A DNA stretch of 38,441 bases. Source: Sediminibacterium sp. (GTDB lineage Bacteria > Bacteroidota > Bacteroidia > Chitinophagales > Chitinophagaceae). A program made the position numbers and the translations under genes. Below the pieces are notes generated by a model. That model ran no database searches, was not told the DNA's origin, and worked only from the letters and a program-made list of their open reading frames with translations. Positions 1 through 15,328 of this stretch are shown here, one piece after another (position 1 is the first letter of the stretch; the number at the start of each line of letters is the position of its first letter). Where the stretch lies: positions 1-38,441 of the forward strand of contig JAIXYL010000070.1 of assembly GCA_027490265.1 (NCBI GenBank). The letters are read 5' to 3'.

Positions 1-534
1 CAAATTAGCTTTGCCCCTGATACAACAAATGGGCTTTCAGGAATTTGGGGTATCCCCAATATCAAATGGCGTAGTAATTACAATGACGAGGTTAAAATTT
101 TTCTAAATGAATTTATGATTAGACCAGAAAAAGTATTGGAAATTAATATCAACGAGATCGCATATGTAAAAGTCTTCAAACCCCCATTTTTAGGGGCTGC
201 CTTAGGGGCACCTAATGGCGCTATTGCGATTTATACAAAATTGGGGGATGAAGGGAATCATTTCCCAAGGGAATCAAAATTGACCAGTTTCATGATCAAA
301 GGATTTACTAGACCGCCAACATATATTCAACCAGATTATTCAAAAGCCAATAATAAAGCAGTGATTGATCAGCGTAAAACCTTGCTTTGGGCACCAACTG
401 TTCATCTTAGCAAAGAAAAACCCACAATGACCTTGGTATATTATAACAATGACCGGAGCAAACAACACCGACTGATTATTGAGGGCGTTAAACAAAATGG
501 GGAGATTATCCGAAGAGATTGGCTGGTTGAGTAA
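1..534 (+). CDS. C-terminal end of TonB-plug type outer-membrane protein (partial)
   Basis: The reading frame is open from base 1, so the gene begins outside the window; 177 codons are visible before the stop. The segment IAYVKVFKPPF followed by GAPNGAIAIYTK resembles the end of a TonB-dependent receptor plug domain, where a conserved Gly-rich turn precedes an IxIxTK strand. In Bacteroidota such plug-like domains also close long secreted proteins that start with a carboxypeptidase-regulatory domain and have no beta-barrel. The remaining ~80 residues (ending in a YYNND...LIIEG strand pattern) look like a final beta-sheet tail rather than a barrel, which favours that class. A cell-surface or periplasmic location is inferred. 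The exact family cannot be settled without the missing N-terminus. Confidence 0.7.
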   Translation, partial: QISFAPDTTNGLSGIWGIPNIKWRSNYNDEVKIFLNEFMIRPEKVLEININEIAYVKVFKPPFLGAALGAPNGAIAIYTKLGDEGNHFPRESKLTSFMIKGFTRPPTYIQPDYSKANNKAVIDQRKTLLWAPTVHLSKEKPTMTLVYYNNDRSKQHRLIIEGVKQNGEIIRRDWLVE

Positions 535-550
535 AAGTCTTGAACTTATT

Positions 551-580
551 TTGCGATTTATAATGTTTGGATTATATTTG
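551..580 (+). promoter_or_regulatory. Bacteroidetes-type promoter of tRNA-Arg
   Basis: TATATTTG at 573-580 matches the Bacteroidetes -7 consensus TAnnTTTG. TTG at 551-553 lies 19 bases upstream, as expected for the -33 element. The tRNA begins 17 bases downstream of the -7 box, so the tRNA is probably transcribed on its own rather than by readthrough from the upstream gene. Confidence 0.6.
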
Positions 581-597
581 CAGCCCCTTAAGGGAAT

Positions 598-671
598 GGC
601 TGCGTAGCTCAACTGAATAGAGCATCTGACTACGGATCAGAAGGTTTTAGGTTTGAATCCTAACGCGGTCA
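598..671 (+). tRNA. tRNA-Arg (anticodon ACG)
   Basis: A full cloverleaf can be folded. The acceptor stem GGCTGCG pairs with CGCGGTC at 664-670, with two G-U type pairs. The D arm is GCTC/GAGC. The anticodon arm is TCTGA-CTACGGA-TCAGA with anticodon ACG. The T arm is TTAGG-TTTGAAT-CCTAA. The discriminator base is A671, and CCA is not encoded (CAC-less end: ACA follows), so it is added after transcription. ACG decodes CGN arginine codons and normally has its A34 converted to inosine by TadA. Confidence 0.93.
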
Positions 672-672
672 C

Positions 673-702
673 AAAAAGAGCTGCAAATTTGCAGCTCTTT
701 TT
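673..702 (+). terminator. Rho-independent terminator after tRNA-Arg
   Basis: A near-perfect palindrome (AAAAAGAGCTGCAAA with its complement TTTGCAGCTCTTTTT) begins two bases after the tRNA and ends in a T run. It has A and T tracts on both sides, so it may also stop minus-strand transcription from the lipoprotein gene that ends at 760. Confidence 0.85.
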
Positions 703-759
703 CATTACTAGTAATCAAGACTCAATTGTATAAGGTGGTCAATTGATATGCTCACCCCT

Positions 760-1662
760 TTATTTACTCCGTCTGACGGGTTTTAAGTTCTTGCCGTAAT
801 AAATATCAGCTGGATTATGATGTCCTGCATAAACCTTACTTAGTATATTAAAGAGCACCGGATCATAAGCCTTTAAATCTTCAGGCGATTGAATTCTTTG
901 TGATTTATCAAAAAACTCATAATTAGACCAGAACCACCATTGTGTGCCTTCAGCCCAATATTCAGCTGATGTATTAATAGCATATTGTCCAGCATATTTG
1001 CCCGCATTTTTTGCTATGGTGTATGCTTCCAATATTTCTCGATATAATGCAGTATCACAGGTTCTAATTGCGTTCATCATATTATGACTAAATTCATGTA
1101 TGAGAATATTTTCGCCGTAATAGCGTGTATTGGGATAGCCCAGTAAATTTTCTTCTGCACAAGAAGTAATTGTACCTCCCATACCTCTAGCCCTTTTGTT
1201 CCAATATTCTCGATCTGTCATGCTCGCAATTCCTCCGGGTTGATCATAATTGTTTCTTTCGCCAGGTGTAAGGCGTTTGTCATCTCTGGTAGGTTTTTTC
1301 CAATTCCTCCTTTCTGGTAAATCAGTTTCCATTTCTGTTTCTGCCATAACCAGTACACGGGCTTTTTGCTGAATCAATGTAGACCGAATATCTGGTCTTT
1401 TGACCAACATGAAATTGACAATATCTCTTGCAATGAGTATGGCATCATCTGGTACTTTAGATGATGATACAATTGGAATGCCATACGCATCAGCATATTT
1501 TTTATAAAAACTATCTAACCCAAGCTGATGAGGAGGTGAATACACCATTTGTTGAATGTATGACTTGACTGATTGAAGGTTATTGGATGTGTCAATAATT
1601 TTTTTTGAAGTAGTGCAAGATCCCAAAAAACAAACACCAATGAGTTGCCAAAGAGACTTCAT
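760..1662 (-). CDS. Putative zinc-metallopeptidase-like lipoprotein
   Basis: The 300-residue product begins with a short hydrophobic stretch ending in a lipobox (LGSC, Cys16), so it should be a lipid-anchored exported protein. HEFSH at residues 189-193 fits the HExxH zinc motif. A second acidic cluster, SAEYWAEGTQWWF (Glu224/Glu228), lies about 30 residues later, where gluzincins place the third zinc ligand. The aromatic-rich segment after it resembles bacterial and fungal proteins with the same HExxH...EYWAEG layout, whose substrates are unknown. Cys158 and Cys202 might form a disulfide. It is divergent from the TetR operon and stands alone. The catalytic role is inferred from motifs only; no named family is claimed. 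Confidence 0.65.
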   Translation of the reverse strand: MKSLWQLIGVCFLGSCTTSKKIIDTSNNLQSVKSYIQQMVYSPPHQLGLDSFYKKYADAYGIPIVSSSKVPDDAILIARDIVNFMLVKRPDIRSTLIQQKARVLVMAETEMETDLPERRNWKKPTRDDKRLTPGERNNYDQPGGIASMTDREYWNKRARGMGGTITSCAEENLLGYPNTRYYGENILIHEFSHNMMNAIRTCDTALYREILEAYTIAKNAGKYAGQYAINTSAEYWAEGTQWWFWSNYEFFDKSQRIQSPEDLKAYDPVLFNILSKVYAGHHNPADIYYGKNLKPVRRSK

Positions 1663-1817
1663 ATGATAAATTTTATTAGAATACTTAAAGCTAAACGTCC
1701 ATTAGAAATCATTCTAGTCATTGATTATCAAGGTGTATTCATATTTTAACTCATGAATAAATTATTTAATTTTGAATATTAAGGTTTTATTAAGACTTAG
1801 TTCTTGACTAATTCTTG

Positions 1818-1825
1818 TACTTTTG
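1818..1825 (+). promoter_or_regulatory. -7 promoter element of the TetR/inositol-lipid operon
   Basis: TACTTTTG matches TAnnTTTG. The predicted transcript start is near 1830, about 25 bases before the TetR start codon. I see no good -33 TTG at 19-21 bases, so the promoter may be intrinsically weak. It is the only convincing -7 box before the operon. Confidence 0.5.
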
Positions 1826-1853
1826 GACCCGTAAACCATTTTGGTCTAAAAGT
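1819..1853 (+). promoter_or_regulatory. Candidate TetR operator (11-bp inverted repeat)
   Basis: Arms ACTTTTGGACC (1819-1829) and GGTCTAAAAGT (1843-1853) are inverted repeats with one mismatch and a 13-base spacer. The left arm overlaps the -7 box and the right arm ends 2 bases before the TetR start codon. A TetR dimer bound here would block the promoter. The assignment as operator is inference from position and symmetry. Confidence 0.5.
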
Positions 1854-1855
1854 TT

Positions 1856-2446
1856 ATGGTAAAAGAAGAGATTTTTAAAGAAGACATCATTCGGGAAGCC
1901 CAAAAGCTGTTCCAGACTTTTGGCTTGAAAAAGACCACCATGGAGGATATTGCCAAAGCTTTGGGAAAAGGCAAAAGTACCCTGTATTATTACTATCAAA
2001 GTAAGGAGCAAATTTTTGAAGAAGTCTTACAAAAAGAGCTTCAAGCCGTCTTTAATCAAACCCAAATTGCCGTTGGTGCAGTTGATTCAGCCGAAGAAAA
2101 ATTAAAAACATTTGCAGTCACTCGAATTAAGGTACTTAGCAATATGTTGAATCTTTACCGAGTGGTTTGTGGTGAGCTGAGTGAGCAAAATACTTGTACA
2201 AAGGGCTTGTTTAATGAGTACTCTCAGTTAGAGACCAATTTAATCAAATCCATATTAGAATTTGGTATTCAATCAGGTGAGTTCAGTCAAGCATTATCCC
2301 AAGAAATGGATTTATTGCCATCGGTTGTAGTCAGCAGCATCAGAGGTATTGAACGCGATTTTTTCAATGATAAATTGGTTGGTTTAGAACATCGAATTGG
2401 GGCGATTTCCAATTTGATGGTGAATGGGCTAAAAAATAAATTGTAA
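1856..2446 (+). CDS. TetR/AcrR family transcriptional regulator
   Basis: The 196-residue length is typical of TetR regulators. Residues ~10-57 form the N-terminal three-helix DNA-binding domain: AQKLFQTFGLKKTTMEDIAKALG, then GKSTLYYYYQSKEQIF, the diagnostic recognition-helix region. The C-terminal part is a ligand-binding helical domain without recognisable ligand residues. It starts the inositol-lipid operon, with ino1 only 20 bases downstream. An inverted repeat over its promoter suggests autorepression that also controls the lipid genes. The inducer might be a fatty acyl-CoA or lipid intermediate, but that is inference. The ATG at 1856 is preferred because the operator and promoter lie just in front of it. 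Confidence 0.9.
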   Translation: MVKEEIFKEDIIREAQKLFQTFGLKKTTMEDIAKALGKGKSTLYYYYQSKEQIFEEVLQKELQAVFNQTQIAVGAVDSAEEKLKTFAVTRIKVLSNMLNLYRVVCGELSEQNTCTKGLFNEYSQLETNLIKSILEFGIQSGEFSQALSQEMDLLPSVVVSSIRGIERDFFNDKLVGLEHRIGAISNLMVNGLKNKL

Positions 2447-2466
2447 ATATTTAAAGAACAAAATAT

Positions 2467-3792
2467 ATGAAACAACACATTACCCCTGCCGAAGGAAAAC
2501 TGGGGATTTTAATTCCAGGATTGGGTGCGGTAGGTACAACAATGATTGCTGGCGTTATCGCAGTAAATAAAGGCTTGTCGCAACCTGTAGGTGCATTGAC
2601 CCAAATGGGGAATATTCGTTTAGGGAAAAGAACAGAGAATCGTTATCCGTTAATTAAGGATTTTGTGCCTTTGGCAAATTTAAACGATATCGTATTTGGT
2701 GGTTGGGATGTTTATGCAGACAATGTTTTTGAAGCTGCTGCCAACGCAAAAGTACTTGAACCAATGTTACTACACGCCGTAAAACCAGAGTTGGAAGCCA
2801 TTCAACCAATGAAAGCGGTGTTTGATCATGAGTATGTTAAAAATTTGGATGGTACCCATATTAAAGAGGGTAAAAATAAATTTGATTTAGCGGAACAAGT
2901 TATTGCAGATATAGAACAATTTAAAGCAACGAATGGCTGCTCAAGAGTGGTGATTGTTTGGTGTGGTTCTACTGAAAAATACATTGAAACATCTGCTGTT
3001 CATGAAACTATTGAGGCTTTTGAAACAGGTTTGCACAACAACGATCCTGCCATTGCACCGAGTATGATTTATGCTTATGCAGCGCTTAAATTGGGTATAC
3101 CTTTTGCAAATGGTGCCCCTAACTTAACGGTAGATATTCCTGCATTAGAATCACTGGCCAAACAAACGCAAACACCGATTGCTGGAAAAGATTTCAAAAC
3201 AGGTCAAACCTTAATGAAGACAGTTTTAGCGCCTGGTTTACATGCGAGAGCATTGGGCATTAGAGGTTGGTTTTCTACCAATATTCTTGGTAATAGAGAC
3301 GGGCTAGTATTAGATGATCCGGATAATTTCAAAACAAAGGAAGTTTCAAAATTGAGTGTGCTTGAAGACATTCTTCAGCCTGAAATTAATCCCGCATTGT
3401 ATGGTGATTTGTACCACAAAGTGCGCATTAACTATTATCCGCCTCATGGTGATAATAAAGAGAGCTGGGACAATATTGACATTTTTGGTTGGTTAGGATA
3501 TTCAATGCAAATTAAAATCAACTTTTTGTGTAGGGACTCTATTTTGGCAGCACCCATTGTTTTAGACCTTGCGTTGTTTATGGATTTGGCCAAGCGCTCA
3601 AATATGAGTGGCATTCAAGAATGGTTGTCGTTCTACTTTAAGTCGCCTCAAACATTGCCAGGGTTAAGACCTGAGCACGATATTTTTAAACAATTAATCA
3701 AATTGCAAAATACACTTCGCCATATCATGGGTGAAGATCTTATTACACACTTGGGATTAGATTACTACCAAGATGTAGTAGAAGCGTTATGA
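2467..3792 (+). CDS. ino1: Inositol-3-phosphate synthase
   Basis: The 441-residue protein converts D-glucose-6-phosphate to 1D-myo-inositol-3-phosphate using bound NAD. The N-terminal Rossmann glycine motif PGLGAVGTT lies at residues ~17-25. The segments NGAPNLTVDIPAL, AGKDFKTGQT and the later CRDSILAAPIVLDLALFMDLAKR are characteristic of the MIPS family's NAD and catalytic region. Lys and Asp residues of the KDFKTGQT loop belong to the active site. The length matches bacterial MIPS rather than the longer eukaryotic forms. It is the committed step of inositol synthesis and sits first after the regulator. Its stop overlaps the next start by four bases (ATGA), indicating translational coupling to the phosphatase gene. 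Confidence 0.95.
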   Translation: MKQHITPAEGKLGILIPGLGAVGTTMIAGVIAVNKGLSQPVGALTQMGNIRLGKRTENRYPLIKDFVPLANLNDIVFGGWDVYADNVFEAAANAKVLEPMLLHAVKPELEAIQPMKAVFDHEYVKNLDGTHIKEGKNKFDLAEQVIADIEQFKATNGCSRVVIVWCGSTEKYIETSAVHETIEAFETGLHNNDPAIAPSMIYAYAALKLGIPFANGAPNLTVDIPALESLAKQTQTPIAGKDFKTGQTLMKTVLAPGLHARALGIRGWFSTNILGNRDGLVLDDPDNFKTKEVSKLSVLEDILQPEINPALYGDLYHKVRINYYPPHGDNKESWDNIDIFGWLGYSMQIKINFLCRDSILAAPIVLDLALFMDLAKRSNMSGIQEWLSFYFKSPQTLPGLRPEHDIFKQLIKLQNTLRHIMGEDLITHLGLDYYQDVVEAL

Positions 3793-4241
3793 TAAAATTG
3801 CATCAGATACTGACCAGTTTTTTTGGAATAGGATACATTTCAAAAGGTGGTGGTACAGTTGCAGCTATTGCAACAGCCATTATTTGGTATGTTGCAATGC
3901 CTTCACTGACTTCTGGTGTTGTAATAGTGATGACGTTATTGGTAATTGGCTATGGCCTTTGGGGCGCAAGTTGTGTTGAGCAAATATGGGGTAAAGACAG
4001 CAGTAAAGTAGTGATTGATGAAGTAGCTGGAATGATGATTGCGCTTGTATTTGTACCCATCAATCTCACCAATCTAATGGTTGCCCTTGGTTTGTTTCGT
4101 TTTTTTGACATAACAAAACCGTTACTGATTAGGCAATTAGAAAGTTGGCCAAAGGGATGGGGGGTTATGGCAGACGATGTGTTGGCAGGGCTTTACAGCA
4201 ATATTGTTTTACAAGGTTTATTGTATTTGAACCTATGGTAA
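3789..4241 (+). CDS. PgpA-family phosphatase, probably phosphatidylinositol-phosphate phosphatase
   Basis: The 150-residue membrane protein matches phosphatidylglycerophosphatase A. It opens with FFGIGYISKGGGTVAA (the conserved G-x-G-x-x-P/K-x-APGT-like region) and carries the VVIDEVAGMM metal/catalytic motif with Asp77 and Glu78. About four hydrophobic segments are visible. PgpA enzymes remove the terminal phosphate from phosphatidylglycerophosphate. Between an inositol-phosphate synthase and a CDP-alcohol transferase, the more likely substrate is phosphatidylinositol phosphate, as in the inositol-lipid cluster described in Bacteroides. That specificity is inferred from context. A housekeeping PgpA role cannot be excluded. 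Confidence 0.88.
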   Translation: MIKLHQILTSFFGIGYISKGGGTVAAIATAIIWYVAMPSLTSGVVIVMTLLVIGYGLWGASCVEQIWGKDSSKVVIDEVAGMMIALVFVPINLTNLMVALGLFRFFDITKPLLIRQLESWPKGWGVMADDVLAGLYSNIVLQGLLYLNLW

Positions 4242-4612
4242 AACATGTTTTCATAAAAGCACAAGCGGCATCATTAATTGCTTCAGGGGTAGATTTTTTA
4301 ATGACGGTATTCTTTGTTGAGGTATTGCAATTAAAAGCGGTATTGGCGGCGGCTTTAGGAACCATCAGTGGCGGAATGGTTAATTTCAGTTTAGGCAGGT
4401 ATTGGGTATTTAAATCCGCTGCAAAACCAATTCCAATGCAGGCTTTAAAGTATTTGGTTGTTTGGATTGGGAATTTATTATTAAACATAGGCGGCATGAC
4501 CATTATGATACATTATGTTCATGCCAATTATATGGTATCAAAAATTTTAGTTTCACTTTTAGTAGGTGTGTTTTACAATTATCTATTGCAAGGGAAATTT
4601 GTTTTCAAATAA
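4235..4612 (+). CDS. GtrA-like membrane protein
   Basis: The 125-residue protein has four predicted membrane segments and the GtrA pattern: an early ASGVDFLMTVFFVE helix, GTISGGMVNFSLGRYWVFK at the second helix, and a C-terminal NYLLQGKFVFK. GtrA proteins are thought to flip or support flipping of lipid-linked sugars. In this operon it may move an inositol lipid or a glycosylated derivative across the inner membrane (inference). A start is possible 30 codons upstream at 4145, but that would put a non-hydrophobic segment inside pgpA. The ATG at 4235, which overlaps the pgpA stop as ATGGTAA, gives the family's usual length. Confidence 0.85.
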   Translation: MVKHVFIKAQAASLIASGVDFLMTVFFVEVLQLKAVLAAALGTISGGMVNFSLGRYWVFKSAAKPIPMQALKYLVVWIGNLLLNIGGMTIMIHYVHANYMVSKILVSLLVGVFYNYLLQGKFVFK

Positions 4613-4622
4613 AGTATGGTTA

Positions 4623-7181
4623 ATGAAAGGCAGTTATTTTTTTAAGCTCTTGGTTACATTGGTTTTTTTTATAAAACTTTCTTCTGCATCTGCACAAGAA
4701 ACTGTGGTAAAAGGCATTGTAATTGATTCTATTACCAAACGTCCTTTGCAAGGGGTAAGCGTTTTCTTTTTAAAAGGGAGAGGGGTTGTAACAGATAGTT
4801 TGGGTAGGTATATGATTATTACCAATACGACCATTAATAAAGTAGTGGTATCATCTGTAGGATTTAGGCAGGTTCAGTTTAATGTAACACGCTTTAAAAT
4901 GCAGGAAATCAATATTGAATTAGGACCAGATCCTGCACTGTTAACCAATGTAACGGTGAATACCAACAAAAGGGCTAAGTATCGCAATAAAGACAATCCT
5001 GCTGTAGAATTGATTAGAAAAGTCATTGAGAACAGAGAGAATAATAGAATAGCCAGCTATGATTATGTTGAGTATGAGCAATACGAGAAAATTCAAGCTG
5101 CTTTAAGTAACTCAAACGATAAAGTAACCAATTCGCGGATGCTTAAGAAATATAATTTCTTATTTGAAAACCGCGATAGTTCTAAATTAAATGGAAAAAT
5201 TCTGCTCCCCATTTATTTGGAAGAACGACTGTCTAAACAGTATTTGCGAAAAGATCCATCAGCGTCTAAATCATTGATTTTAGGGGAGAAAAAAGTAAAT
5301 TTTGGCAGTTATGTTGACAATGATGGATTGAGTACACTATTGAATCGGCTTTATGAGAATATTGATATCTATCAAAACAATATCCCCATTTTTACCTACC
5401 AGTTTTTGAGTCCTATTGCCAATGCAGCACCTACTTTTTACATGTATTATATCCGTGATACCATTACAGATGATTACGGTACCAAATTGGTGAAATTGTA
5501 TTTTACGCCTCGAAATACCAATGATTTATTGTTCAGGGGAAATATGTACATCACATTAGATGGCAACTATGCGGTTCAGAAAATCAATATGTTTATCAGC
5601 CGAAATGCCAATATTAATTGGATCAAAGAGTTGTATGCAGATTTAGATTTTGAAAGAGGCGAAGACAAAAAATATCATTTGGTAAAAAGTGATTTAATGG
5701 CTGATATGGGACTCAGTAAAAACAGTACCAGTGGTGGTTTTTTTGGTGAACGCACCGTTTCATATAAAGGCTTTACAATCAATAAACCGAGGCCAGACAG
5801 CGTTTACCAAGGCCCTGCTGTAGTGCGCAATGATGATGTCATCACCAAATTGCCCGATAGTTTTTGGACAGCACGAAGACATGCACCGTTATCAAAACCT
5901 GAATCCAAAGTTTATAGTAATATTGATAGCTTAGAAAAAATGCCTTCTTTCAGAAGAACAATGGCCGTATTTACTTTATTGTTTGCGGGCTATGGTGATC
6001 TTGGACCAATAGAAGTGGGACCGGTCAATACGTTCTACAGCTTTAATCCAGTGGAGGGCTTTAGACTTCGCGTTGGTGGAAGAACAACACCAGCCATGAG
6101 TAAGCGATTGTATTTTGAAACCTATGGTGCATATGGATTTAAAGACGAACAGTGGAAAGGTTTTTTAAGTGCAACCTATTCTTTAAACAATAAATCAATT
6201 TATACTTTCCCTATGAATTTTATTAGGGTTAGTGCCCAAAGTGATACCAAAATTCCAGGTCAAGATTTAGAGTTTGTTCAAGAGGATAATTTCTTATTGT
6301 CATTCAAACGCGGCAATAATGAACGTTGGTTATACAATAATATTTATCAAGTAGAATTTGTAAAGGAATTTAAAAGTAGATTGTCCTACAATATTGGATT
6401 TAAAAATTGGCACCAACAACCTGCTGGTATTTTGACGTATACAAAGAATGCCAATACTGCGCCAGAGAATGTTCAGAATGTAATTACCACCGAATTGAGT
6501 GCTCAGGTTCGTTGGGCACCCAACGAAAAATTTTATCAAGGTAAAATTTATCGAATCCCCATTTTTACAAAGTATCCCATTTTCACTTTAAGTGCAGCAG
6601 CAGGCGTTAAGGGATTATTAGGTGGTCAATACAATTATCAAAAAGTAGATTTAAGAATTGAGAAGCGAAATTATATGGGCAGACTTGGGTATGCTGATGC
6701 TACTTTAGAAGGAGGGGTTATATTCGGACAAGTGCCTTTCCCATTATTAACTGTGCACAGAGCCAACCAAACATTTGCATATCAATTGAACTCTTACAAT
6801 ATGATGAACTTCTTAGAATTTGTAAGTGATCGTTACGCTTCTTTTACTTGGGTGCATCATTTTATGGGTATTGTGTTCAATCGAATTCCCTTATTAAAAA
6901 AATTGAAATTTAGAGAAGTCGCTTCTTTTAAAGTGTTGTATGGTGGTGTTAGATCAGAAAACAATCCTGTTTTGAACCCGAATTTATTTGCATATCCAAC
7001 CATCAATGGCGTCACTTCTACTTTTGCATTAGATCCCGCAAAGCCCTATATGGAAGCCAGTGTAGGAGTAGAAAATATTTTGAATATTCTCAGAGTAGAT
7101 TTTGTGAAGCGATTGAGTTATTTGGATAACCCGGGCATATCACCTTATGGAATTAGAACAAGATTCAGGTTCGATTTTTAA
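4623..7181 (+). CDS. DUF5686 / carboxypeptidase-regulatory outer-membrane protein
   Basis: The chosen ATG at 4623 gives 852 residues beginning with a signal peptide that ends near SASA/Q. The upstream in-frame ATG at 4566 lies inside gtrA and would bury the signal. Residues ~25-110 form a carboxypeptidase-regulatory-like beta-sandwich (VVKGIVIDSITKRPLQGVSV, then SVGFRQVQ). The rest matches the long DUF5686 region and ends in alternating aromatic strands with the terminal RFRFDF, typical of an outer-membrane beta-barrel with a final Phe. DUF5686 function is unknown. Its place between inositol-lipid enzymes suggests a role in exporting or anchoring the lipid at the outer membrane, though this is inference. 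Confidence 0.85.
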   Translation: MKGSYFFKLLVTLVFFIKLSSASAQETVVKGIVIDSITKRPLQGVSVFFLKGRGVVTDSLGRYMIITNTTINKVVVSSVGFRQVQFNVTRFKMQEINIELGPDPALLTNVTVNTNKRAKYRNKDNPAVELIRKVIENRENNRIASYDYVEYEQYEKIQAALSNSNDKVTNSRMLKKYNFLFENRDSSKLNGKILLPIYLEERLSKQYLRKDPSASKSLILGEKKVNFGSYVDNDGLSTLLNRLYENIDIYQNNIPIFTYQFLSPIANAAPTFYMYYIRDTITDDYGTKLVKLYFTPRNTNDLLFRGNMYITLDGNYAVQKINMFISRNANINWIKELYADLDFERGEDKKYHLVKSDLMADMGLSKNSTSGGFFGERTVSYKGFTINKPRPDSVYQGPAVVRNDDVITKLPDSFWTARRHAPLSKPESKVYSNIDSLEKMPSFRRTMAVFTLLFAGYGDLGPIEVGPVNTFYSFNPVEGFRLRVGGRTTPAMSKRLYFETYGAYGFKDEQWKGFLSATYSLNNKSIYTFPMNFIRVSAQSDTKIPGQDLEFVQEDNFLLSFKRGNNERWLYNNIYQVEFVKEFKSRLSYNIGFKNWHQQPAGILTYTKNANTAPENVQNVITTELSAQVRWAPNEKFYQGKIYRIPIFTKYPIFTLSAAAGVKGLLGGQYNYQKVDLRIEKRNYMGRLGYADATLEGGVIFGQVPFPLLTVHRANQTFAYQLNSYNMMNFLEFVSDRYASFTWVHHFMGIVFNRIPLLKKLKFREVASFKVLYGGVRSENNPVLNPNLFAYPTINGVTSTFALDPAKPYMEASVGVENILNILRVDFVKRLSYLDNPGISPYGIRTRFRFDF

Positions 7182-7191
7182 AGCGTAATTT

Positions 7192-7923
7192 ATGAGCCAG
7201 ACAACACCAAAATTCAGAGACCGCGCACAACAATTGATTTATGTTGTGATCAATCCCTTGGTTAAATTTTTAATCAAGTTAGGGTTAACACCCAATGCAG
7301 TCACATTGATTGGATTGGTCTTAAATATTTTGGTGACTGCTATTTTTATTGAAGGTGCTGAAAAAGGGAATAGAGGAGAGCTGAGTTATATTGGATGGGC
7401 TGGCGCAATGGTTTTATTTGCAGGCGTATTTGATATGTTAGACGGGCAAGTGGCCAGGTTAGGCAAAATGTCTTCCTCATTTGGGGCTTTGTTTGATTCA
7501 GTGTTGGATCGATACAGTGAATTGGTGTTGTTCCTAGGTATTTGTTATTATTTAATATCGCATCACTATTTCTATAGTTCTTTATTTGCCTTTATTGCCA
7601 TGATTGGATCGTTGATGGTGAGCTATACAAGGGCAAGAGCAGAGGGCTTGGGAGTTGAATGTAAAGAAGGCTTGATGCAACGTCCTGAAAGAGTGATTAC
7701 GATAGGGGTTAGCGCAATTGCTTGTGGCATCACAGCTTATTTTATAGGGGGGGATTATAAACTCTATTTATCAGGTACACGCATACAAGTCTTTGAAACG
7801 ATTTCTGTTTTCACCATACCGCTTACCATTCTAGCGGTATTAACCAATTATACAGCATTTAAACGTTTGTTTGATGCAAAACTGGCACTAGATTTGAAAG
7901 ACAAGCTTAAACAAGATGATTAA
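7192..7923 (+). CDS. CDP-alcohol phosphatidyltransferase, probably phosphatidylinositol-phosphate synthase
   Basis: The 243-residue integral membrane enzyme carries the complete family signature D-x2-DG-x2-AR-x8-G-x3-D-x3-D: Asp81, Asp84-Gly85, Ala88-Arg89, Gly98, Asp102 and Asp106. The aspartates bind the divalent metal and CDP-diacylglycerol, and the last acts as base. About six hydrophobic segments are visible. With inositol-3-phosphate synthase in the same operon, the acceptor is most likely inositol phosphate, giving phosphatidylinositol phosphate for the PgpA-like enzyme. Motif alone cannot exclude glycerol-phosphate as acceptor. A run of seven G (7747-7753) lies inside the gene and is read in frame. 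Its stop overlaps an alternative start of the next gene. Confidence 0.9.
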   Translation: MSQTTPKFRDRAQQLIYVVINPLVKFLIKLGLTPNAVTLIGLVLNILVTAIFIEGAEKGNRGELSYIGWAGAMVLFAGVFDMLDGQVARLGKMSSSFGALFDSVLDRYSELVLFLGICYYLISHHYFYSSLFAFIAMIGSLMVSYTRARAEGLGVECKEGLMQRPERVITIGVSAIACGITAYFIGGDYKLYLSGTRIQVFETISVFTIPLTILAVLTNYTAFKRLFDAKLALDLKDKLKQDD

Positions 7924-7942
7924 TTTTGTGTTGATTGAAAGA

Positions 7943-8524
7943 ATGAAACAATATCCTACATACAAATATCTCTTATCTGTCATGACATTGATGGTCTTAT
8001 CTTTTGGGCAATTTTCATATGCCAACGGTAAACCATATTTGATGGATCCACAGGATACCTTCCCGGTACCTACTAATATCAAAAATCAATTGTTTTATTT
8101 GCAGCGTACTACCAATACCAATACGGTGGTATACGCACTCAATATAAACGACAAGGGTGTACTAGATGAAAGCACACCGGTAAAAGTGTTTTGGATTCGA
8201 TATCCAGAAGGCGGTATGCGAAAAGATTTAAATTTTATTCAGAAGGCATTTGCTTACGGAACTATTTCAAGAAAAAACAAAGACGGCAGTTTTACGATTC
8301 AATTAGTGGCGTATAAAAAGAAAGAATTTATTTTAAAAAAATCGCCGCAAGACAACACGTATAAATTGTACACTTCAATCAATCATAAAGAGTCTGAAAT
8401 CAAACGCGTGTTTATTAAAATTGATCCGGGTGGCACATTGTTTAGTCCAAATATCGCTTATATAGAAATGAAAGGAAAAGAAGCGGATACCAATAAGCCA
8501 ATTATGGAAAGATTCAAACCTTAA
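7943..8524 (+). CDS. DUF4833 secreted protein of unknown function
   Basis: With the ATG at 7943 the product is 193 residues and begins MKQYPTYKYLLSVM, a signal peptide ending near SYA. The alternative ATG at 7916 overlaps the upstream stop and adds nine residues before the signal, so I prefer 7943. The mature part (NQLFYLQRTTNTNTVVYALN, a WIRYPEGG turn, KRVFIKIDPGG near the end) matches the DUF4833 pattern. I know no biochemical function. The family is recurrently found near PAP2/inositol-lipid genes in Bacteroidota, and its periplasmic location hints at a helper for lipid head-group transfer or lipid export. That role is speculative. Confidence 0.75.
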   Translation: MKQYPTYKYLLSVMTLMVLSFGQFSYANGKPYLMDPQDTFPVPTNIKNQLFYLQRTTNTNTVVYALNINDKGVLDESTPVKVFWIRYPEGGMRKDLNFIQKAFAYGTISRKNKDGSFTIQLVAYKKKEFILKKSPQDNTYKLYTSINHKESEIKRVFIKIDPGGTLFSPNIAYIEMKGKEADTNKPIMERFKP

Positions 8525-8533
8525 AGTGGAGCA

Positions 8534-9454
8534 ATGCCATTTAAAAAAAATATACGTGCATCTATTTTAGTCCTATTTTTTTCGCTAGCATATTTGGTGT
8601 TATCCTTTTTTTTAATTGGATTTAAAACTGATCAGTTAGTTTTAGTAGGCTTGTTCAATGGCCTTTATTATTTATCAGCAGTAACTCGAAAGTTCATATT
8701 AGGGTTCACCGTATTTATTGTCTTCTGGATCATTTTCGATTACATGAAGGCTTTCCCTAATTACCATTACAATACCGTTAGCATCCAGGATTTGTATCAA
8801 ATGGAGAAAACACTTTTTGGGTTTATGCATCAAGGGGTTTTGGTTACCCCCAATGAATATTGGCTAATCAACCACACCACTATTTTAGATATTTTATCTG
8901 GTTTGTTTTATTTGAGTTGGATTCCAGTGCCATTGACGTTTGCAGGGTATTTGTTTTTTTATCATAAACCTGCTTTTTTTTATTTTTCATTGACTTTTTT
9001 GCTGGTTAATTTGATAGGTTTTGCCTTTTATTATATCTATCCTGCGGCACCACCTTGGTATGTACAACAATTTGGATTTGATTTTATTGCCAACACCAAA
9101 GGCAATACGGCTGGTCTGTCACGATTTGATGCGTATTTTGGGGTCAGTATTTTTAAAGGGTTATATGAAAAGAGTTCAAATGTATTTGCCGCCATGCCCT
9201 CTTTGCATTCTGCTTATCCCGTGATTGTTTTATACTACGGTATTAAATATCAATTGGGCAAAATCAATTGGTTATTAGGATTGATCGTACTAGGTATTTG
9301 GTTCTCTGCTGTATACAGTAGTCACCATTATATTCTAGATGTACTCGCAGGCATTACTTGCTCGATTCTTGGTATTTGGTTATTTCAACAAATGATTAAA
9401 GGCAATACTTGGGTGCATCGAGCCATCAATCGTGCAGTAAAAGCACTTAGTTAA
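8534..9454 (+). CDS. PAP2-superfamily Aur1-like inositol phosphorylceramide synthase
   Basis: The 306-residue polytopic protein has the Aur1/Ipt1 type arrangement. Membrane helices fill the N-terminal half. YPAAPPWY lies at residues 169-176, AMPSLHSAYP at 220-229 (His225), and SSHHYILDVLAG at 262-273 with His264/265 and Asp269. The two histidines and the Asp form the PAP2 catalytic triad, which acts through a phospho-enzyme. The fungal enzyme moves inositol phosphate from phosphatidylinositol to ceramide. Placement with inositol synthase and a CDP-alcohol transferase supports the same reaction on bacterial dihydroceramide. The gene ends the operon and its stop overlaps by 8 bp the end of a convergent second PAP2-type gene. 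Confidence 0.85.
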   Translation: MPFKKNIRASILVLFFSLAYLVLSFFLIGFKTDQLVLVGLFNGLYYLSAVTRKFILGFTVFIVFWIIFDYMKAFPNYHYNTVSIQDLYQMEKTLFGFMHQGVLVTPNEYWLINHTTILDILSGLFYLSWIPVPLTFAGYLFFYHKPAFFYFSLTFLLVNLIGFAFYYIYPAAPPWYVQQFGFDFIANTKGNTAGLSRFDAYFGVSIFKGLYEKSSNVFAAMPSLHSAYPVIVLYYGIKYQLGKINWLLGLIVLGIWFSAVYSSHHYILDVLAGITCSILGIWLFQQMIKGNTWVHRAINRAVKALS

Positions 9455-10067
9455 ATGGCGCAATGATTCGCCTCGCAATCTTGATGATAAAATAAGGGAA
9501 TACAAATGCGGCAATCACATCAATGGTATAATGCACATGCTGTACTAATACCAATATGCCAACGATGATTCCACCCGTTAATACAATTAATTGGTCTTTT
9601 CTTTTCCTTAAACACAAGGACAGGCAAACAAGGGTTGCTGTATGACCAGAAAAAAACAAATCTTTCGTAATAAACTTTGCACCATAAAAACGATTGGTGA
9701 TAGGGTCTATTAATTCAACCAAATCTTTTGGGGGATCCAATGGTACAAGATAGATACTAATGATTCTGGAAATGAATAAAACATTTAATCCCCAAAGAAT
9801 CAATAAAATCAAAGCAGGATCATTGGCACTTTTATACAAATACCACAAACTTAAACTCCAGATAATGATGAACGTTGGAATTGAAACATTGGCACTGTCT
9901 ATATAATTCAGGACAATGTCGTTTAATTGGATGCCTCTACGGGCTTCAATAAACGCAAAATAATAGGGTAGGAAAGCTACCAACAATACCAAGATTAAAA
10001 TACCTAACGCCAATTTGTTGCGAAACAATTTATTTCGCCAATATGGGCGCCATTGCTCATTCATCAT
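9447..10067 (-). CDS. Sphingomyelin-synthase-like PAP2 enzyme (ceramide head-group transferase candidate)
   Basis: The 206-residue protein has about five or six hydrophobic segments. KDLFFSGHTATL (His142) matches the D3 motif of sphingomyelin synthases (FSGHT), and HVHYTIDVIAAF (His179, Asp183) matches their D4 motif (HYTxDVxxAY). These supply the catalytic His-His-Asp triad for transferring a phospho-head group from a glycerophospholipid to ceramide. In Bacteroidota the product could be ethanolamine-phosphoceramide, but the donor is unknown. It is convergent with the Aur1-like gene, overlapping it by 8 bp. It lies 15 bases downstream of nagB on the same strand, so it is probably transcribed with the amino-sugar genes. 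Confidence 0.8.
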   Translation of the reverse strand: MMNEQWRPYWRNKLFRNKLALGILILVLLVAFLPYYFAFIEARRGIQLNDIVLNYIDSANVSIPTFIIIWSLSLWYLYKSANDPALILLILWGLNVLFISRIISIYLVPLDPPKDLVELIDPITNRFYGAKFITKDLFFSGHTATLVCLSLCLRKRKDQLIVLTGGIIVGILVLVQHVHYTIDVIAAFVFPYFIIKIARRIIAPFN

Positions 10068-10082
10068 CCGGCAAAAGTAGGG

Positions 10083-11999
10083 CTAGTAATGCCAACGAAC
10101 AAATGCTTCCATGGCTGCATATTTGGTCATACCAAGTTCTGCATATAAATTGGCCGTATTGGCGTTTCTGTCTTCAGCTCTTTGCCAAAATTCACGGTTG
10201 TCAGATCCTTGAAAAGGCACCATGTCTTTTTGCGATTGGTGAATAAATATGCCAAAACGTTTTTTCTTTACTTGATCTGGACTCATAGGAATGGCCATTT
10301 CAATGTCGGCAATATCCCATTCTTGCCAAGCGCCTTTATACAACCATACCCAGCAATCTTTAACCCAATCATCTCCTGCAGCTTTAATCCGCCTTAGCGC
10401 TTCAAAAATGGCTTCTAAGCAAACCCGATGTGTACCATGTGGATCAGCTAAGTCTCCCGCACAATAAACTTGATGTGGTTTTATTTGACGAAGCAATGCC
10501 ATGGTAATGACAATATCTTCTTCCCCAAGTGGCTTTTTTTCAATCGTGCCTGTTTCATAAAATGGCATATTCATAAAATGCCAACGGCCCTCTGGTAAAC
10601 CTACGTACCTACATGTGGCTTTGGCTTCGCCTCTTCTAATTAATCCCTTCACTGCTCTGATTTCTTGCGTATCCATTTGGTCTTTTTTCTTAGACGCAAT
10701 GAATTGTTCTGCAGAAGACAGTTGTTCAATGCTTTTACTATTGTCCATGCCAAACATTTCTTCAAAGCCAACAGCAAAATCAATAAAGCGCGTTACAAAT
10801 TCGTCTGTTACAGCAATATTGCCACTTGTTTGGTAAGCAACATGTACTTCATGCCCTTGATCGTGTAAGCGCATAAATGTTCCACCCATACTGATGATAT
10901 CGTCATCAGGGTGGGGTGAAAAAATTAAACATCTTTTTGGATGTGGTTCAGACCTTTCAGGGTGAGCAGGAATGACCGCATTGGGTTTGCCACCAGGCCA
11001 GCCTGTAATGGTGTCTCTTAGCATGTAAAATACTTGGAGATTAATTTCATAAGCATCGCCTTGTTCAACTAATAAATCGGATAACCCATTCTCAGTATAG
11101 TCTAAAGTCGTTAAACTTAAAACAGACTTATTTAATTTCAGTGCTAAATACACCACCGCTCTTTTAATCATCGCATTGGTCCAAACACAATCTCCAGTTA
11201 GCCATGGCGATTTAATGCGCGTTAATTCCGTAGAAGCTGCTTCATCAATCACAAACGTACAATCGTTGTGTTGTTGTAGGATACTGGCCGGAATACTTTC
11301 GGTAACATTGCCTTCAACCGATTTGGCAACTATATTGGCTTTGTTACCCCAGGCTAATAAAATGATTTTTTTGGCTTTTAAAATGCTGCTGATGCCCATG
11401 GTTACAGCCAATCTGGGGACTTTACTAATGGTGCCAAATTCATACGAGTTAGCCAGTCTGGTACTGTTCTCTAAATTAACCAAACGGGTCTTTGACAGTA
11501 TGCTTGAGCCCGGCTCATTAAAGCCGATATGTCCATTTTGCCCAATACCTAATATTTGCAAATCAATTCCACCAGCAGCTTCAATGGCTTGCTCATATGA
11601 TGCACAATAGTTTTTGATGTCTGCTTTTGGGGCATTACCATTGGGCAAATGAATATTTGCAGGATCAATATCAATATGGTTGAAAAGATTACGATGCATA
11701 AAGCTCCAATAGCTTTGATATGCGTCTTTATCTATCGGGTAATACTCATCCAAGTTAAATGTGATGACATTTTTGAAACTTAAACCTTCTTCCCGATGCA
11801 TGCGAACCAATTCAGCATACATTTTTATAGGCGTAGACCCTGTAGCCATACCAAGGACTACTTTCTCACCTTTTGCGGCTTTTTCCTTGATTAAACTGGC
11901 TATTTGCTGAGCAGCATACAGGGATCCTTCAACAGCGGTTGGGTATATTTTTACCTCAATCTTTTCAAATGAATCAACCATAGTTAACTTATTTTGCAT
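10083..11999 (-). CDS. nagB: Glucosamine-6-phosphate deaminase fused to a PIG-L (LmbE) deacetylase domain
   Basis: The 638-residue protein has two domains. Residues ~12-280 are NagB-like: GMATGSTP at 50-57, FNLDEY at 81-86 (Asp84, equal to E. coli Asp72), and GQNGHIGFNEP at 153-163 with His157 and Glu162. The position of E. coli Asp141 is Asn155. Residues ~355-620 are a PIG-L/LmbE domain with HPDD at 363-366 and HGTH at 521-524, supplying the usual zinc ligands. NagB converts GlcN-6-P to fructose-6-P and ammonia. The PIG-L domain might deacetylate GlcNAc or GlcNAc-6-P, but its substrate is not known to me. This long fused form is common in Bacteroidota. GH20 lies upstream, 65 bp away. An alternative start is Met7. 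Confidence 0.9.
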   Translation of the reverse strand: MQNKLTMVDSFEKIEVKIYPTAVEGSLYAAQQIASLIKEKAAKGEKVVLGMATGSTPIKMYAELVRMHREEGLSFKNVITFNLDEYYPIDKDAYQSYWSFMHRNLFNHIDIDPANIHLPNGNAPKADIKNYCASYEQAIEAAGGIDLQILGIGQNGHIGFNEPGSSILSKTRLVNLENSTRLANSYEFGTISKVPRLAVTMGISSILKAKKIILLAWGNKANIVAKSVEGNVTESIPASILQQHNDCTFVIDEAASTELTRIKSPWLTGDCVWTNAMIKRAVVYLALKLNKSVLSLTTLDYTENGLSDLLVEQGDAYEINLQVFYMLRDTITGWPGGKPNAVIPAHPERSEPHPKRCLIFSPHPDDDIISMGGTFMRLHDQGHEVHVAYQTSGNIAVTDEFVTRFIDFAVGFEEMFGMDNSKSIEQLSSAEQFIASKKKDQMDTQEIRAVKGLIRRGEAKATCRYVGLPEGRWHFMNMPFYETGTIEKKPLGEEDIVITMALLRQIKPHQVYCAGDLADPHGTHRVCLEAIFEALRRIKAAGDDWVKDCWVWLYKGAWQEWDIADIEMAIPMSPDQVKKKRFGIFIHQSQKDMVPFQGSDNREFWQRAEDRNANTANLYAELGMTKYAAMEAFVRWHY

Positions 12000-12064
12000 C
12001 GCTAATATACATTAAAGTGTCATAAATCCGCATTAAATTATGCTGTTTTATGCGGTATTTTGAA

Positions 12065-13744
12065 TTATTTGCTGGGTTCGGGTGTATTGTTCGCTGGATC
12101 AAAAAAGGCTTTGCTATAGTTCAATCCCATCCAATCGTAACGTTTGAATGCTTGTAACAAACGTTTTTCAAAATTGGGCCAGTTCTTTTGTGATTTTGGG
12201 GTCCATAGTACTTCACTCAATGCACTCATTCTTGGGAAAATTTGGTATTCAACTTTAGCCGTATTGGTCATGTACTCAGTCCAAACATTGGCTTGTGCCC
12301 CCAAAACATATTTAGCGTCTTCTGTAGACAATGCTTTTGGAATTGGTTCATAGCTGTACACTTTTTGAATGGTTGTATATCCACCAATGGTAACAGAATC
12401 TTCATTCTTAGACTGTTTGTGATCAAAATACATCCAACCTCCTGGGGTCATGATCACATTGTGTTTTTGCTTGGCTGCTTCAATGCCACCTTGTTCACCT
12501 CTCCAACTCATTACTGTTGCATTTGGCGCTAAGCCTCCTTCTAAAATTTCATCCCATCCAATAATTTGTTTGCCCTTGCTGTTTAAGTATTTTTCTATTC
12601 TTTGAATAAAATAGCTTTGTAATCCATGCTCATCTTTTAATCCTTTGTCTTTGATTAATTGCTGACAATAAGCCGATTTTTTCCAAGCTTCTTTTGGACA
12701 CTCATCACCTCCAATATGAATATATTTTGAAGGGAATAATTGAATCACTTCGTCAAATACATTTTCTAAAAATTTAAATGTTGTTTCAGTGGGGGCAAAC
12801 ACGTCTTCAAAAACGCCCCAAACTTGTTGCACTTGTTTGCCAGATGTTGGTCCATTCCAAGCTGTATTTGATGGGTGTTTGGTACTTGAATCTGGAAAGC
12901 AACTTAATTCAGGATAAGCTGCAATCGCTGCAGAAGAATGGCCTGGTAATTCAATCTCAGGGATGACTTCAACATATCGATCAGCGGCATATTTGACGAT
13001 CTCTTTAATTTGTGCTTGGGTGTAGAATCCACCATAACGCGTATTTGTATTGCCGGTTCCTGGATATCTTCCAATGATGGTGCCATTTCTAAAGCCACCA
13101 ACTTCTGTTAATCTTGGATATTTTTTGATCTCTATGCGCCAGCCTTGGTCTTCAGTTAAATGCCAATGAAAGGTATTCAACTTATACATCGCAATAAAGT
13201 CAATGTATTTTTTAATAAATTCTACAGGGAAAAAATGTCTGGCTACATCTAAATGCATGCCTCTATAAGCAAATCTGGGTTCATCTTTCACTGATAATTG
13301 AGGAATACTGAGTGTGTTGGCTTTTGTATAAGGGAATAGTTGAATTAAAGATTGAACGCCATAAAATGCGCCCGCTTCGTTTTCACCCTCAATGATGACG
13401 CCATTTTGATTAACATCCAATGCATAGGCGCCAGGAATAATTGTAGATGCGTTCGCTTTTTGTTTTTTGGCATCTGGTTTTGCATAACTGATGACGATAT
13501 TCCCTTTAATATTGGCTTTGGTAGAAATGTTTAATTGTAAGCCATGCATTTGTTTGAGATAATCCTGCAAATATTTGGCAGATTTTTCAAGACCAGCGCC
13601 CATGATTAAAATTTGCGTTTTGTTATTGACTTCAAAACGACCTTTTCCCATGGTTAAAGACGCAGGCTGAGGGATGATTGGACTTTCTTGCGCCATAGAG
13701 AAAATAGAAGCAAGTAAGCAAATGGCAAAAAACCTTTTTTTCAT
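12065..13744 (-). CDS. GH20 beta-N-acetylhexosaminidase, secreted (first copy)
   Basis: The ATG at 13744 gives 559 residues starting MKKRFFAICLLASIFSMAQ, a clean signal peptide. The longer frame from 13816 adds 24 residues across a hairpin and is rejected. Residues ~20-150 form the GH20b domain, then the TIM barrel: RGMHLDVARH at 161-170, WHLTEDQGWR, IPEIELPGHS at 261-270, and HIGGDEC at 343-349 with the Asp347-Glu348 pair. GH20 uses substrate-assisted catalysis, with Asp orienting the acetamido group and Glu as acid/base. It removes terminal GlcNAc or GalNAc from chitin, glycans or peptidoglycan fragments. Downstream nagB shares its strand, fitting amino-sugar uptake and use. Confidence 0.93.
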   Translation of the reverse strand: MKKRFFAICLLASIFSMAQESPIIPQPASLTMGKGRFEVNNKTQILIMGAGLEKSAKYLQDYLKQMHGLQLNISTKANIKGNIVISYAKPDAKKQKANASTIIPGAYALDVNQNGVIIEGENEAGAFYGVQSLIQLFPYTKANTLSIPQLSVKDEPRFAYRGMHLDVARHFFPVEFIKKYIDFIAMYKLNTFHWHLTEDQGWRIEIKKYPRLTEVGGFRNGTIIGRYPGTGNTNTRYGGFYTQAQIKEIVKYAADRYVEVIPEIELPGHSSAAIAAYPELSCFPDSSTKHPSNTAWNGPTSGKQVQQVWGVFEDVFAPTETTFKFLENVFDEVIQLFPSKYIHIGGDECPKEAWKKSAYCQQLIKDKGLKDEHGLQSYFIQRIEKYLNSKGKQIIGWDEILEGGLAPNATVMSWRGEQGGIEAAKQKHNVIMTPGGWMYFDHKQSKNEDSVTIGGYTTIQKVYSYEPIPKALSTEDAKYVLGAQANVWTEYMTNTAKVEYQIFPRMSALSEVLWTPKSQKNWPNFEKRLLQAFKRYDWMGLNYSKAFFDPANNTPEPSK

Positions 13745-13770
13745 ATTGTTTGTTTGAGCATTAGAGTCTA

Positions 13771-13805
13771 AAAATAAAAAAGATTCCCTTGAATAGGGAA
13801 TCTTT
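13771..13805 (-). terminator. Hairpin and U-tract after pyk, just before GH20
   Basis: On the minus strand AAAGATTCCC pairs perfectly with GGGAATCTTT (10 bp, 7-base loop, 13779-13805), followed by TTTTTTATTTTT. This is a good intrinsic terminator for pyk. Only 26 bases separate its end from the GH20 start codon, so it could also act as an attenuator. Confidence 0.75.
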
Positions 13806-13837
13806 CTTTGACTCAATTTATTTGTAAATCATCTTGA

Positions 13838-15328
13838 TTAAATAACTCTGGTTAGTTTAATTAAGTTGGTAGGTAAATGTTGGTCTACTGGTGTGCTACC
13901 TGTATTAATCACAGCATCTCCTGGCTTCACAAATCCTCTTTGTTTTAAGATGTCAATTTGATCAGCAATGATGTCATCAAGGCTCTCTTCTTCAGAATAA
14001 TGAAAAGCTCTTACGCCCCAGCTTAAACTTAATTGGTTAACCAACGATTTTTCTTTTGTAAAAATAAACAGGGGAGAAGAAGGTCTGTAACTACTTAGCA
14101 TAAATGCAGTGTAACCACTTAGTGTCATACCTATTAACGCATTAGCAGATACATCTTCAGCCATTTTAGCCGCGTTGTAACAAACGGCATCACTGTAGAA
14201 TGAAGGTGAATGCGGTTGCGGTTTTAAGTCTTCTGATCGGTTATATCTGTATTCTTTCTTTTCTACTTCTGCAATAATTTTTCGCATGGTTTCTACAACC
14301 AATGCAGGGTGTTGTCCTGCAGCGGTTTCTCCACTTAACATCACAGCGTCAGCACCTTCTAATACTGCATTAGCTACGTCGGTGATTTCACTTCTATTGG
14401 GCTTCACGCGATCGATCATGCTTTCCATCATTTGGGTAGCAACAATCACTGGTTTCGCACGGTGGATGCATTTGCGAATCAATTCTTTTTGAATCAAAGG
14501 AATTTGTTCTACTGGTAATTCAACGCCTAAGTCGCCTCTGGCAACCATGATTGCATCACTTTCTAAAATGATGTCACGAATATTGACAAGCGCTTCAGGC
14601 TTTTCAATTTTAGCAATGATTTTGGTTTTGCTTTTTTTCTCGTCTAGCTTACTTCTTAAGATAACGATATCTTTTACGCTTCTTACAAAGCTTAGGGCCA
14701 CCCAATCGCACTGTTGCTCAATAATAAATTCTAAGTCTATTAAATCTTTTTCAGTTAAAGCAGGTAATGAAATTTTAGTGTCTGGTAAATTCAAGCCTTT
14801 TTTCGATGATAAAACACCCCCCAAAGTTACCACCACTTTCACATCTCCATTTTTCTCAATGCCAGTTACTTTCACTTCAATTTTTCCATCGTCAATCATG
14901 ATTAAGTTGCCAATCACAACATCCCCTGCTAAATTAGGGTAGGAGACGTATATTTTTTCTTTAGTACCAATGCATTTCTCGTTGGTGAAAGTCAATATAT
15001 CGCCCACTTGTAAGTCTAATGCATTGTTTTCAATTTCACCTACCCTAAGTTTGGGACCTTGTAAGTCTGCCAGAATAGCAATATTATAAGGCTGGGTTTT
15101 ATTGATATTTCTGATATGTTCAATAATGGCAAGTTTGTCTTCATGACTGCCATGAGAGAAATTCAACCTAAATACGTTAACACCAGCTTTTACTAAATTC
15201 AATAATTGCTCATAAGAGTCACAAGCTGGCCCTACTGTAGCCACAATTTTGGTTTTATGCATGACGTGTTTAACGCCTGCTTCTCTGTCCATGTTCTTGT
15301 GCAAGTACTTCTCTAAATTCTTTGACAT
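13838..15328 (-). CDS. pyk: Pyruvate kinase
   Basis: The 496-residue cytosolic enzyme turns phosphoenolpyruvate and ADP into pyruvate and ATP. Visible motifs in order are KIVATVGPACDS near residue 27, NFSHGSHED (PEP/K+ site), MVARGDLGVELP (metal site), and VATQMMESM with the ATP-contact loop. The C-terminal regulatory domain follows, ending NTGSTPVDQHLPTNLIKL. The length is slightly above the ~470-480 norm because of ~22 extra N-terminal residues. An internal Met23 right before HKTKIVATVG could be the true start. pfkA ends only 27 bases upstream on the same strand, so the two glycolytic control enzymes form an operon. A terminator lies 33 bases downstream. Confidence 0.96.
   Translation of the reverse strand: MSKNLEKYLHKNMDREAGVKHVMHKTKIVATVGPACDSYEQLLNLVKAGVNVFRLNFSHGSHEDKLAIIEHIRNINKTQPYNIAILADLQGPKLRVGEIENNALDLQVGDILTFTNEKCIGTKEKIYVSYPNLAGDVVIGNLIMIDDGKIEVKVTGIEKNGDVKVVVTLGGVLSSKKGLNLPDTKISLPALTEKDLIDLEFIIEQQCDWVALSFVRSVKDIVILRSKLDEKKSKTKIIAKIEKPEALVNIRDIILESDAIMVARGDLGVELPVEQIPLIQKELIRKCIHRAKPVIVATQMMESMIDRVKPNRSEITDVANAVLEGADAVMLSGETAAGQHPALVVETMRKIIAEVEKKEYRYNRSEDLKPQPHSPSFYSDAVCYNAAKMAEDVSANALIGMTLSGYTAFMLSSYRPSSPLFIFTKEKSLVNQLSLSWGVRAFHYSEEESLDDIIADQIDILKQRGFVKPGDAVINTGSTPVDQHLPTNLIKLTRVI

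Follow-up and report, generated by a model that had tools for sequence, protein, structure and literature searches.

The Bacteroides thetaiotaomicron gene cluster BT_1522-BT_1526 encodes an inositol phosphate synthase, a PgpA-type phosphatidylinositol phosphate (PIP) phosphatase, a GtrA-family protein, a PIP synthase and an AUR1-like synthase, and deletions in Bacteroides have tied these counterpart genes to the formation of phosphatidylinositol (PI) and inositol phosphoceramide (IPC) (Sartorio et al. 2022, PMC8791184; Heaver et al. 2022, PMC9246714). The GtrA protein had no lipid phenotype in one of these studies and was associated with lower IPC in the other (PMC9246714, PMC8791184), and a carboxypeptidase-regulatory-like neighbour, BT_1527, is mentioned for B. 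thetaiotaomicron (Heaver et al. 2022, PMC9246714). The passages of the two papers that concern the cluster mention no natural TetR regulator, DUF4833 protein or operator, and TetR appears in them only in an engineered inducible strain (PMC9246714, PMC8791184). Ceramide itself is made in Caulobacter by serine palmitoyltransferase (SPT), bCerS and CerR, and the account of that pathway, in its relevant passages, identifies no flippase or lipid transporter for these bacterial sphingolipids (PMC11087976). Bacteroidota inositol sphingolipids are already known in gut species, and our literature search returned no account of how their synthesis in Bacteroidota is controlled. Here we analyze an eight-gene locus at positions 1856-9454 of a 38,441-nucleotide contig from Sediminibacterium sp. 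(JAIXYL010000070.1, assembly GCA_027490265.1; C155 in our numbering of the 2.87 Mb genome), the whole of which is referred to as the window. This locus is probably a TetR-repressed inositol-lipid operon that would yield PI and then IPC.

All eight genes lie on the + strand where the original prediction had placed them, as confirmed by open reading frames (ORFs), Pfam and NCBIfam, in the order tetR, ino1, pgpA, gtrA, DUF5686, PIP synthase, DUF4833, PAP2. Each protein scored over the Pfam gathering threshold (TetR_N, NAD_binding_5/Inos-1-P_synth, PgpA, GtrA, DUF5686 with CarbopepD_reg_2, CDP-OH_P_transf, DUF4833 and PAP2_3, respectively). The genes form a tight unit with successive intergenic distances of 20, -4, -7, 10, 10, -8 and 9 bases, where the value of -7 follows from the gtrA ATG at 4235 in the ORF sequence, position 4226 offering no start codon. 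The cluster comparison suggested together with the original prediction recovered the identical gene order in many other genomes, and the arrangement therefore goes beyond chance. The closest named PIP synthases include those of Sediminibacterium sp. FEMGT703S, Sediminibacterium sp. C3 and S. salmoneum.

From the genes, their motifs and their order we infer the enzyme activities of the pathway. Ino1 (2467-3792), an inositol-3-phosphate synthase whose best solved structure is 7nwr (563 bits, residues 1-424), which we take to be BT_1526, the Bacteroides enzyme in Heaver et al., would convert glucose-6-phosphate to inositol phosphate. A CDP-alcohol phosphatidyltransferase of the BT_1523 type (7192-7923; NCBIfam NF052561, 380.5 bits against a cut-off of 350) would combine inositol phosphate with CDP-diacylglycerol to give PIP; the motif Dx2DGx2AR...Gx3Dx3D, as given in the passages of Heaver et al. 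2022 (PMC9246714) on this enzyme, is intact (D81, D84, G85, A88, R89, G98, D102, D106), and its residues are invariant across alignment A1. The PgpA-type phosphatase (3789-4241; PF04608, 127.8 bits), to which synteny assigns the predicted role of BT_1525, would dephosphorylate PIP to PI, while the GtrA-family membrane protein (4235-4612; PF04138, 62.5 bits) would take the place of BT_1524. The operon closes with an AUR1-like PAP2_3 enzyme (8534-9454), a predicted IPC synthase that would transfer phosphoinositol onto (dihydro)ceramide; it aligns with the AUR1 structure 9vj3 (E 3.3e-17) and carries SLHS and HHYILDV stretches, which we take to be its catalytic motifs. Because the Bacteroides deletions tie the counterpart genes to PI and IPC, the pathway itself is already known, and judged by sequence the locus is the BT_1522-1526 inositol-lipid pathway and no new one. 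Unlike the Bacteroides cluster as described in these passages, the window has DUF5686 and DUF4833 genes inside the operon and a TetR gene leading it.

The regulator gene tetR (1856-2446; TetR_N, 53.7 bits) encodes a protein whose nearest solved structure is 3f0c, followed by 3vpr and by 3whb, a fatty-acid regulator, and which is weakly similar to the fatty-acid regulator FadR. Only 20 bases separate tetR from ino1, which leaves scant space for a promoter belonging to ino1 itself, and a separate ino1 promoter could still lie inside tetR. Upstream of tetR the Sediminibacterium groups have mostly dissimilar sequence (in some strains the preceding gene's end or a tRNA-like stretch is shared), save for one common block, TTTGGAC-N15-GTCNAAA, which is present in both groups except for a few members with a called tetR start further upstream. 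In the window this block forms a predicted 29-bp inverted-repeat operator (TTTGGAC-N15-GTCTAAA; 1822-1850, + strand), recognized from the conserved upstream block, a genome pattern search and matrix tests, with five bases between the dyad and the tetR ATG at 1856. The operator overlaps a predicted promoter box, TACTTTTG (1818-1825, + strand), of the form TAnnTTTG, the -7 consensus of Bacteroidota. When the source genome was searched with the 30-base dyad pattern, allowing up to three mismatches, a single copy was found, and the backward-pattern control gave 0. The arrangement is most simply read as repression through occlusion of the promoter, in which TetR bound to the dyad would cover the promoter box and silence tetR together with the seven genes behind it. 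The original prediction of a Bacteroides-type inositol-lipid operon headed by a TetR gene is thus borne out, now with a matching predicted operator over the promoter box.

We evaluated the recurrence of the dyad with two matrices. The first, seeded with 30 sites, some of them within the scanned loci and including resistance-nodulation-division (RND) efflux loci L282 and L284, produced 69 matches of at least 16 bits in 2.42 Mb (129 loci) and 0 in reversed sequence. The stricter matrix was trained on 18 distinct Sediminibacterium-type tetR-ino1 sites alone and applied at a threshold of 15 bits fixed before the control was seen, the best reversed-sequence score being 14.5; L128, L129, L153 and L170, which have cut upstream ends, were omitted, as were loci in which no PIP synthase or core gene had been called. 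Of the 71 other loci tested, 17 encode a TetR above 90 bits, and in 12 of these the first operon gene has the dyad in front of it, as against 1 of the 54 loci lacking such a TetR (Fisher p 5.8e-9). In ten of the 17 TetR loci the sole such tetR sits downstream of the PIP synthase and usually also of the PAP2 gene; nine of these have the dyad before SPT or Ino1, and the tenth scores 14.9. The promoter box recurs as well: 38 of 63 site contexts start with TTTG, and 36 of the 38 have TAnn in front, completing TAnnTTTG, against 2.3 expected from all TTTG occurrences in the loci. Our first chance estimate, about 1 of 63, ignored the TTTG common to box and dyad, so that 2.3 is the fairer expectation.

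To place the regulator we surveyed 395 genomes sampled evenly across the class, of which 10 had a TetR match of at least 100 bits and 27 a PIP synthase (E <= 1e-30). The two stood at one locus in the source genome only; in G796 they lie on separate contigs. Of the nine TetRs outside the source genome, eight are followed by genes the size of RND pumps, one such operon being confirmed by Pfam, and each of the eight RND-type loci has at least one dyad match of at least 16 bits with the 30-site matrix. TetRs of RND efflux operons in this class are related to that of the window (~91-137 bits) and share its 29-bp dyad, which in these operons lies before tetR and often also before the membrane-fusion gene; unlike theirs, the predicted target of the window TetR is a lipid-synthesis operon. 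This kinship and the shared dyad at RND efflux operons make the window TetR look recruited. In a tree of 70 TetRs the 24 tetR-ino1 proteins were compatible with a single clade (approximately unbiased test, p-AU 0.545; distant L294 was omitted from these tests, and L153, L155 and L188 were added after tree inspection). Either a single take-over, after which the gene moved about within the cluster, or several take-overs may account for this distribution. In the RND-type operons L282, L284, L285, L288 and L290, the dyad is found before tetR and also ~20 bases before the membrane-fusion-sized gene.

Several of these results weigh against a simple and general TetR switch. The Fisher p value overstates independence because the test loci are related, and loci with a downstream tetR amount, counted on the tree, to about three TetR lineages. 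Upstream of the first gene, five of the 17 TetR loci stay below 15, and with the stricter matrix a score of 23.7 comes from one locus in which no TetR was called. A single clade of all cluster-linked TetRs is borderline (p-AU 0.06). Finally, 25 of the other 26 PIP-synthase genomes in the class sample have no TetR match of 100 bits, and the switch is therefore not general; as worded, the claim of a dedicated regulator is not borne out, its tie to the locus being lineage-bound, with an inositol-locus TetR of at least 100 bits occurring among the 395 genomes in the source genome only.

Derepression would require a ligand that lifts TetR, most plausibly an acyl-CoA, a lipid or a membrane-active compound. 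The presence of related TetRs with the same dyad before RND pump genes outside the cluster suggests that the protein may have remained mainly a drug- or stress-responsive efflux-type regulator, through which membrane-active compounds would turn on inositol lipids as an envelope defence; the altered antimicrobial peptide resistance that accompanies inositol lipid loss in B. thetaiotaomicron, as reported in the corresponding passages of Heaver et al. 2022 (PMC9246714), points the same way. In the source genome, however, a single operator copy was found, no pump gene was seen among the ORFs listed for positions 1-14000, and the weak FadR similarity fits a lipid ligand equally. We regard this possibility as a serious one that falls short of probable; being about the ligand, it is compatible with a TetR-repressed operon for PI and IPC.

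The supply of ceramide bears on whether the pathway would proceed beyond PI. The original prediction of a complete operon holds for the inositol branch, whereas the ceramide genes lie on another contig: SPT (NF047600, 660 bits, cut-off 640) is encoded outside the operon on the 4.8 kb contig C101, followed by a GNAT gene and an epimerase gene, and this separate locus would provide the (dihydro)ceramide. The set resembles the SPT/bCerS/CerR genes of Caulobacter, where we take bCerS to be of the GNAT type and CerR of the epimerase-like type, and the same three recur in the clusters of relatives. Unlike the pathway with which it is compared, the source genome has its ceramide genes at a separate locus, at which the operator dyad was not found. 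In relatives outside the genus, genes for SPT, a GNAT protein and an epimerase-like protein often stand immediately upstream of the cluster, and a fatty acid hydroxylase often precedes the PAP2 gene. Named-locus counts were taken from the best 80 of 585 confirmed loci, of which 11 are shorter than 18 kb, and are therefore biased towards relatives of the window. The SPT, GNAT and epimerase-like labels occurred together in 45 of the 80 (the reductase label also matches unrelated genes), SPT in 52, at least one of these (L121) away from the cluster, and fatty acid hydroxylase in 48. Because SPT, ceramide-synthase-like and ceramide-reductase-like genes directly precede the cluster in many relatives, IPC is favored as the product.

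The SPT search also returned results that point to a shorter pathway. A match of at least 600 bits was present in 8 of 12 same-genus genomes with Ino1, the source genome included, and in the remaining four (G021, G033, G043 and G060) SPT was found neither at 600 bits nor over the SPT family cut-off; three of these are 98-99% complete, G060 only 56%. G073, a genome of another family with Ino1, likewise gave no SPT with the SPT family model. Because SPT was not recognized in G021, G033, G043 and G060, the operon may end at PI in these genomes. Extended to the window, this would mean an operon yielding only PI, along with free inositol phosphate, and a PAP2 enzyme with an acceptor other than ceramide. 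Such an outcome is consistent with the near full-length match of the PAP2 enzyme to NF052609 (phosphoinositol dihydroceramide synthase) at 321.7 bits, under the cut-off of 480, and with an SPT gene that stands outside the operon without an operator. We nevertheless consider it improbable, as the SPT of the source genome itself scores above its cut-off, many relatives carry the ceramide genes inside the same cluster, and the PAP2 enzyme is similar to AUR1.

The two envelope proteins had been singled out as extra members of the operon that point to export. They proved to be regular cluster members: of the 80 named loci, 76 contain DUF5686 and 75 contain DUF4833. DUF5686 (4623-7181) consists, according to Pfam and its predicted fold, of a CarboxypepD_reg-like N-terminus, a middle region and a C-terminal Omp85/BamA-like barrel; the structure model places a predicted barrel of the BamA/TamA/Sam50 type at residues ~460-851, the structural matches covering 460-851. 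The likeness to the Omp85 superfamily lies in this predicted fold. Unlike that superfamily, DUF5686 has a CarboxypepD_reg-like N-terminus, and its sequence profile (A2), searched against the PDB, did not match Omp85 chains; all eight matches at E <= 10, to SusC/RagA-type receptors and to carboxypeptidases, fell on the N-terminal domain. DUF4833 (7916-8524; PF16117, 154 bits) starts with a hydrophobic helix (residues 16-30 in a structure model of mean predicted local distance difference test score 90.3). Export is thus a reading that we infer from the predicted Omp85-type barrel.

We consider a role of DUF5686 and DUF4833 in inositol-lipid export plausible, both proteins presumably acting on the products outside the inner membrane, DUF4833 beside the PIP synthase and DUF5686 in the outer membrane. 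Of 93 PIP synthases examined, counted without six loci and identical sequences, 51 are fused to DUF4833. This recurrence argues against the view that both are general envelope proteins co-transcribed by chance, with no specific part in inositol-lipid metabolism, as does the distribution of DUF5686 matches of at least 700 bits (21 of 27 PIP-synthase genomes versus 6 of 368 others, with two candidates scored per genome), although part of that enrichment is plain relatedness to the window. That view draws on DUF5686 relatives at E <= 1e-60 in 308 of the 395 class genomes, in some PIP-synthase genomes away from the cluster, and on a second DUF4833 paralogue elsewhere in several relatives, and it retains a fair claim to attention while being the less expected outcome. 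A fully coupled route, in which a periplasmic-side, lipid-handling DUF4833 domain on the PIP synthase would hand lipid to DUF5686, whose Omp85-type barrel and CarboxypepD_reg-like periplasmic part would place inositol (sphingo)lipids in the outer membrane, with an efflux-derived regulator switching the route, is unlikely as a whole. The second DUF4833 gene adjoins a gene of ~567-584 amino acids (L016, 12051-14371; also L017, L018, L114-L117 and L122), the L016 copy of which had no Pfam match at E 0.01; this pair lies upstream of tetR in close relatives and is not in the window.

The locus would thus place an established pathway in a new genetic setting, with an identifiable TetR operator, ceramide genes split off and two conserved envelope proteins. 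The reading of regulator and pathway appears well supported, and that of export is a testable idea. A defined operator would give a direct handle on the control of inositol-lipid synthesis, while the recurring PIP-synthase/DUF4833 fusion and an Omp85-like partner offer two candidates for the missing envelope step, which might fill the flippase or transporter gap for bacterial sphingolipids. The Chitinophaga and Pedobacter super-operon, running from SPT to IPC synthase, would offer a one-locus set for heterologous expression.

Convergent to the operon and outside it lies a PAP2_C gene (9447-10067, - strand; PF14360, 33.7 bits, cut-off 27) that shares 8 bases with the end of the last operon gene. 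Its stretches DLFFSGHT and HYTIDVIAA presumably resemble the sphingomyelin synthase family, and it is a candidate second ceramide head-group enzyme. Every same-genus genome with a strong SPT match (12 of 12) has the PAP2_C gene, as do 11 of 49 lacking such a match. On the other side, upstream of tetR, a gene at 760-1662 (- strand) encodes a 300-residue protein for which neither Pfam nor NCBIfam gave a match at E 0.01. In the second Sediminibacterium group (L131, L134, L136, L139, L159, L165, L175 and L184) a serC-like gene, assigned to the phosphoserine transaminase family on the L021 copy, lies immediately 5' of tetR-ino1, and it may or may not be linked to SPT through serine, the SPT substrate. 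A contig labelled Azovibrio restrictus (L128), from a Pseudomonadota metagenome-assembled genome, carries a Bacteroidota-type cluster whose TetR does not differ from the one in L129, and is probably a binning error.

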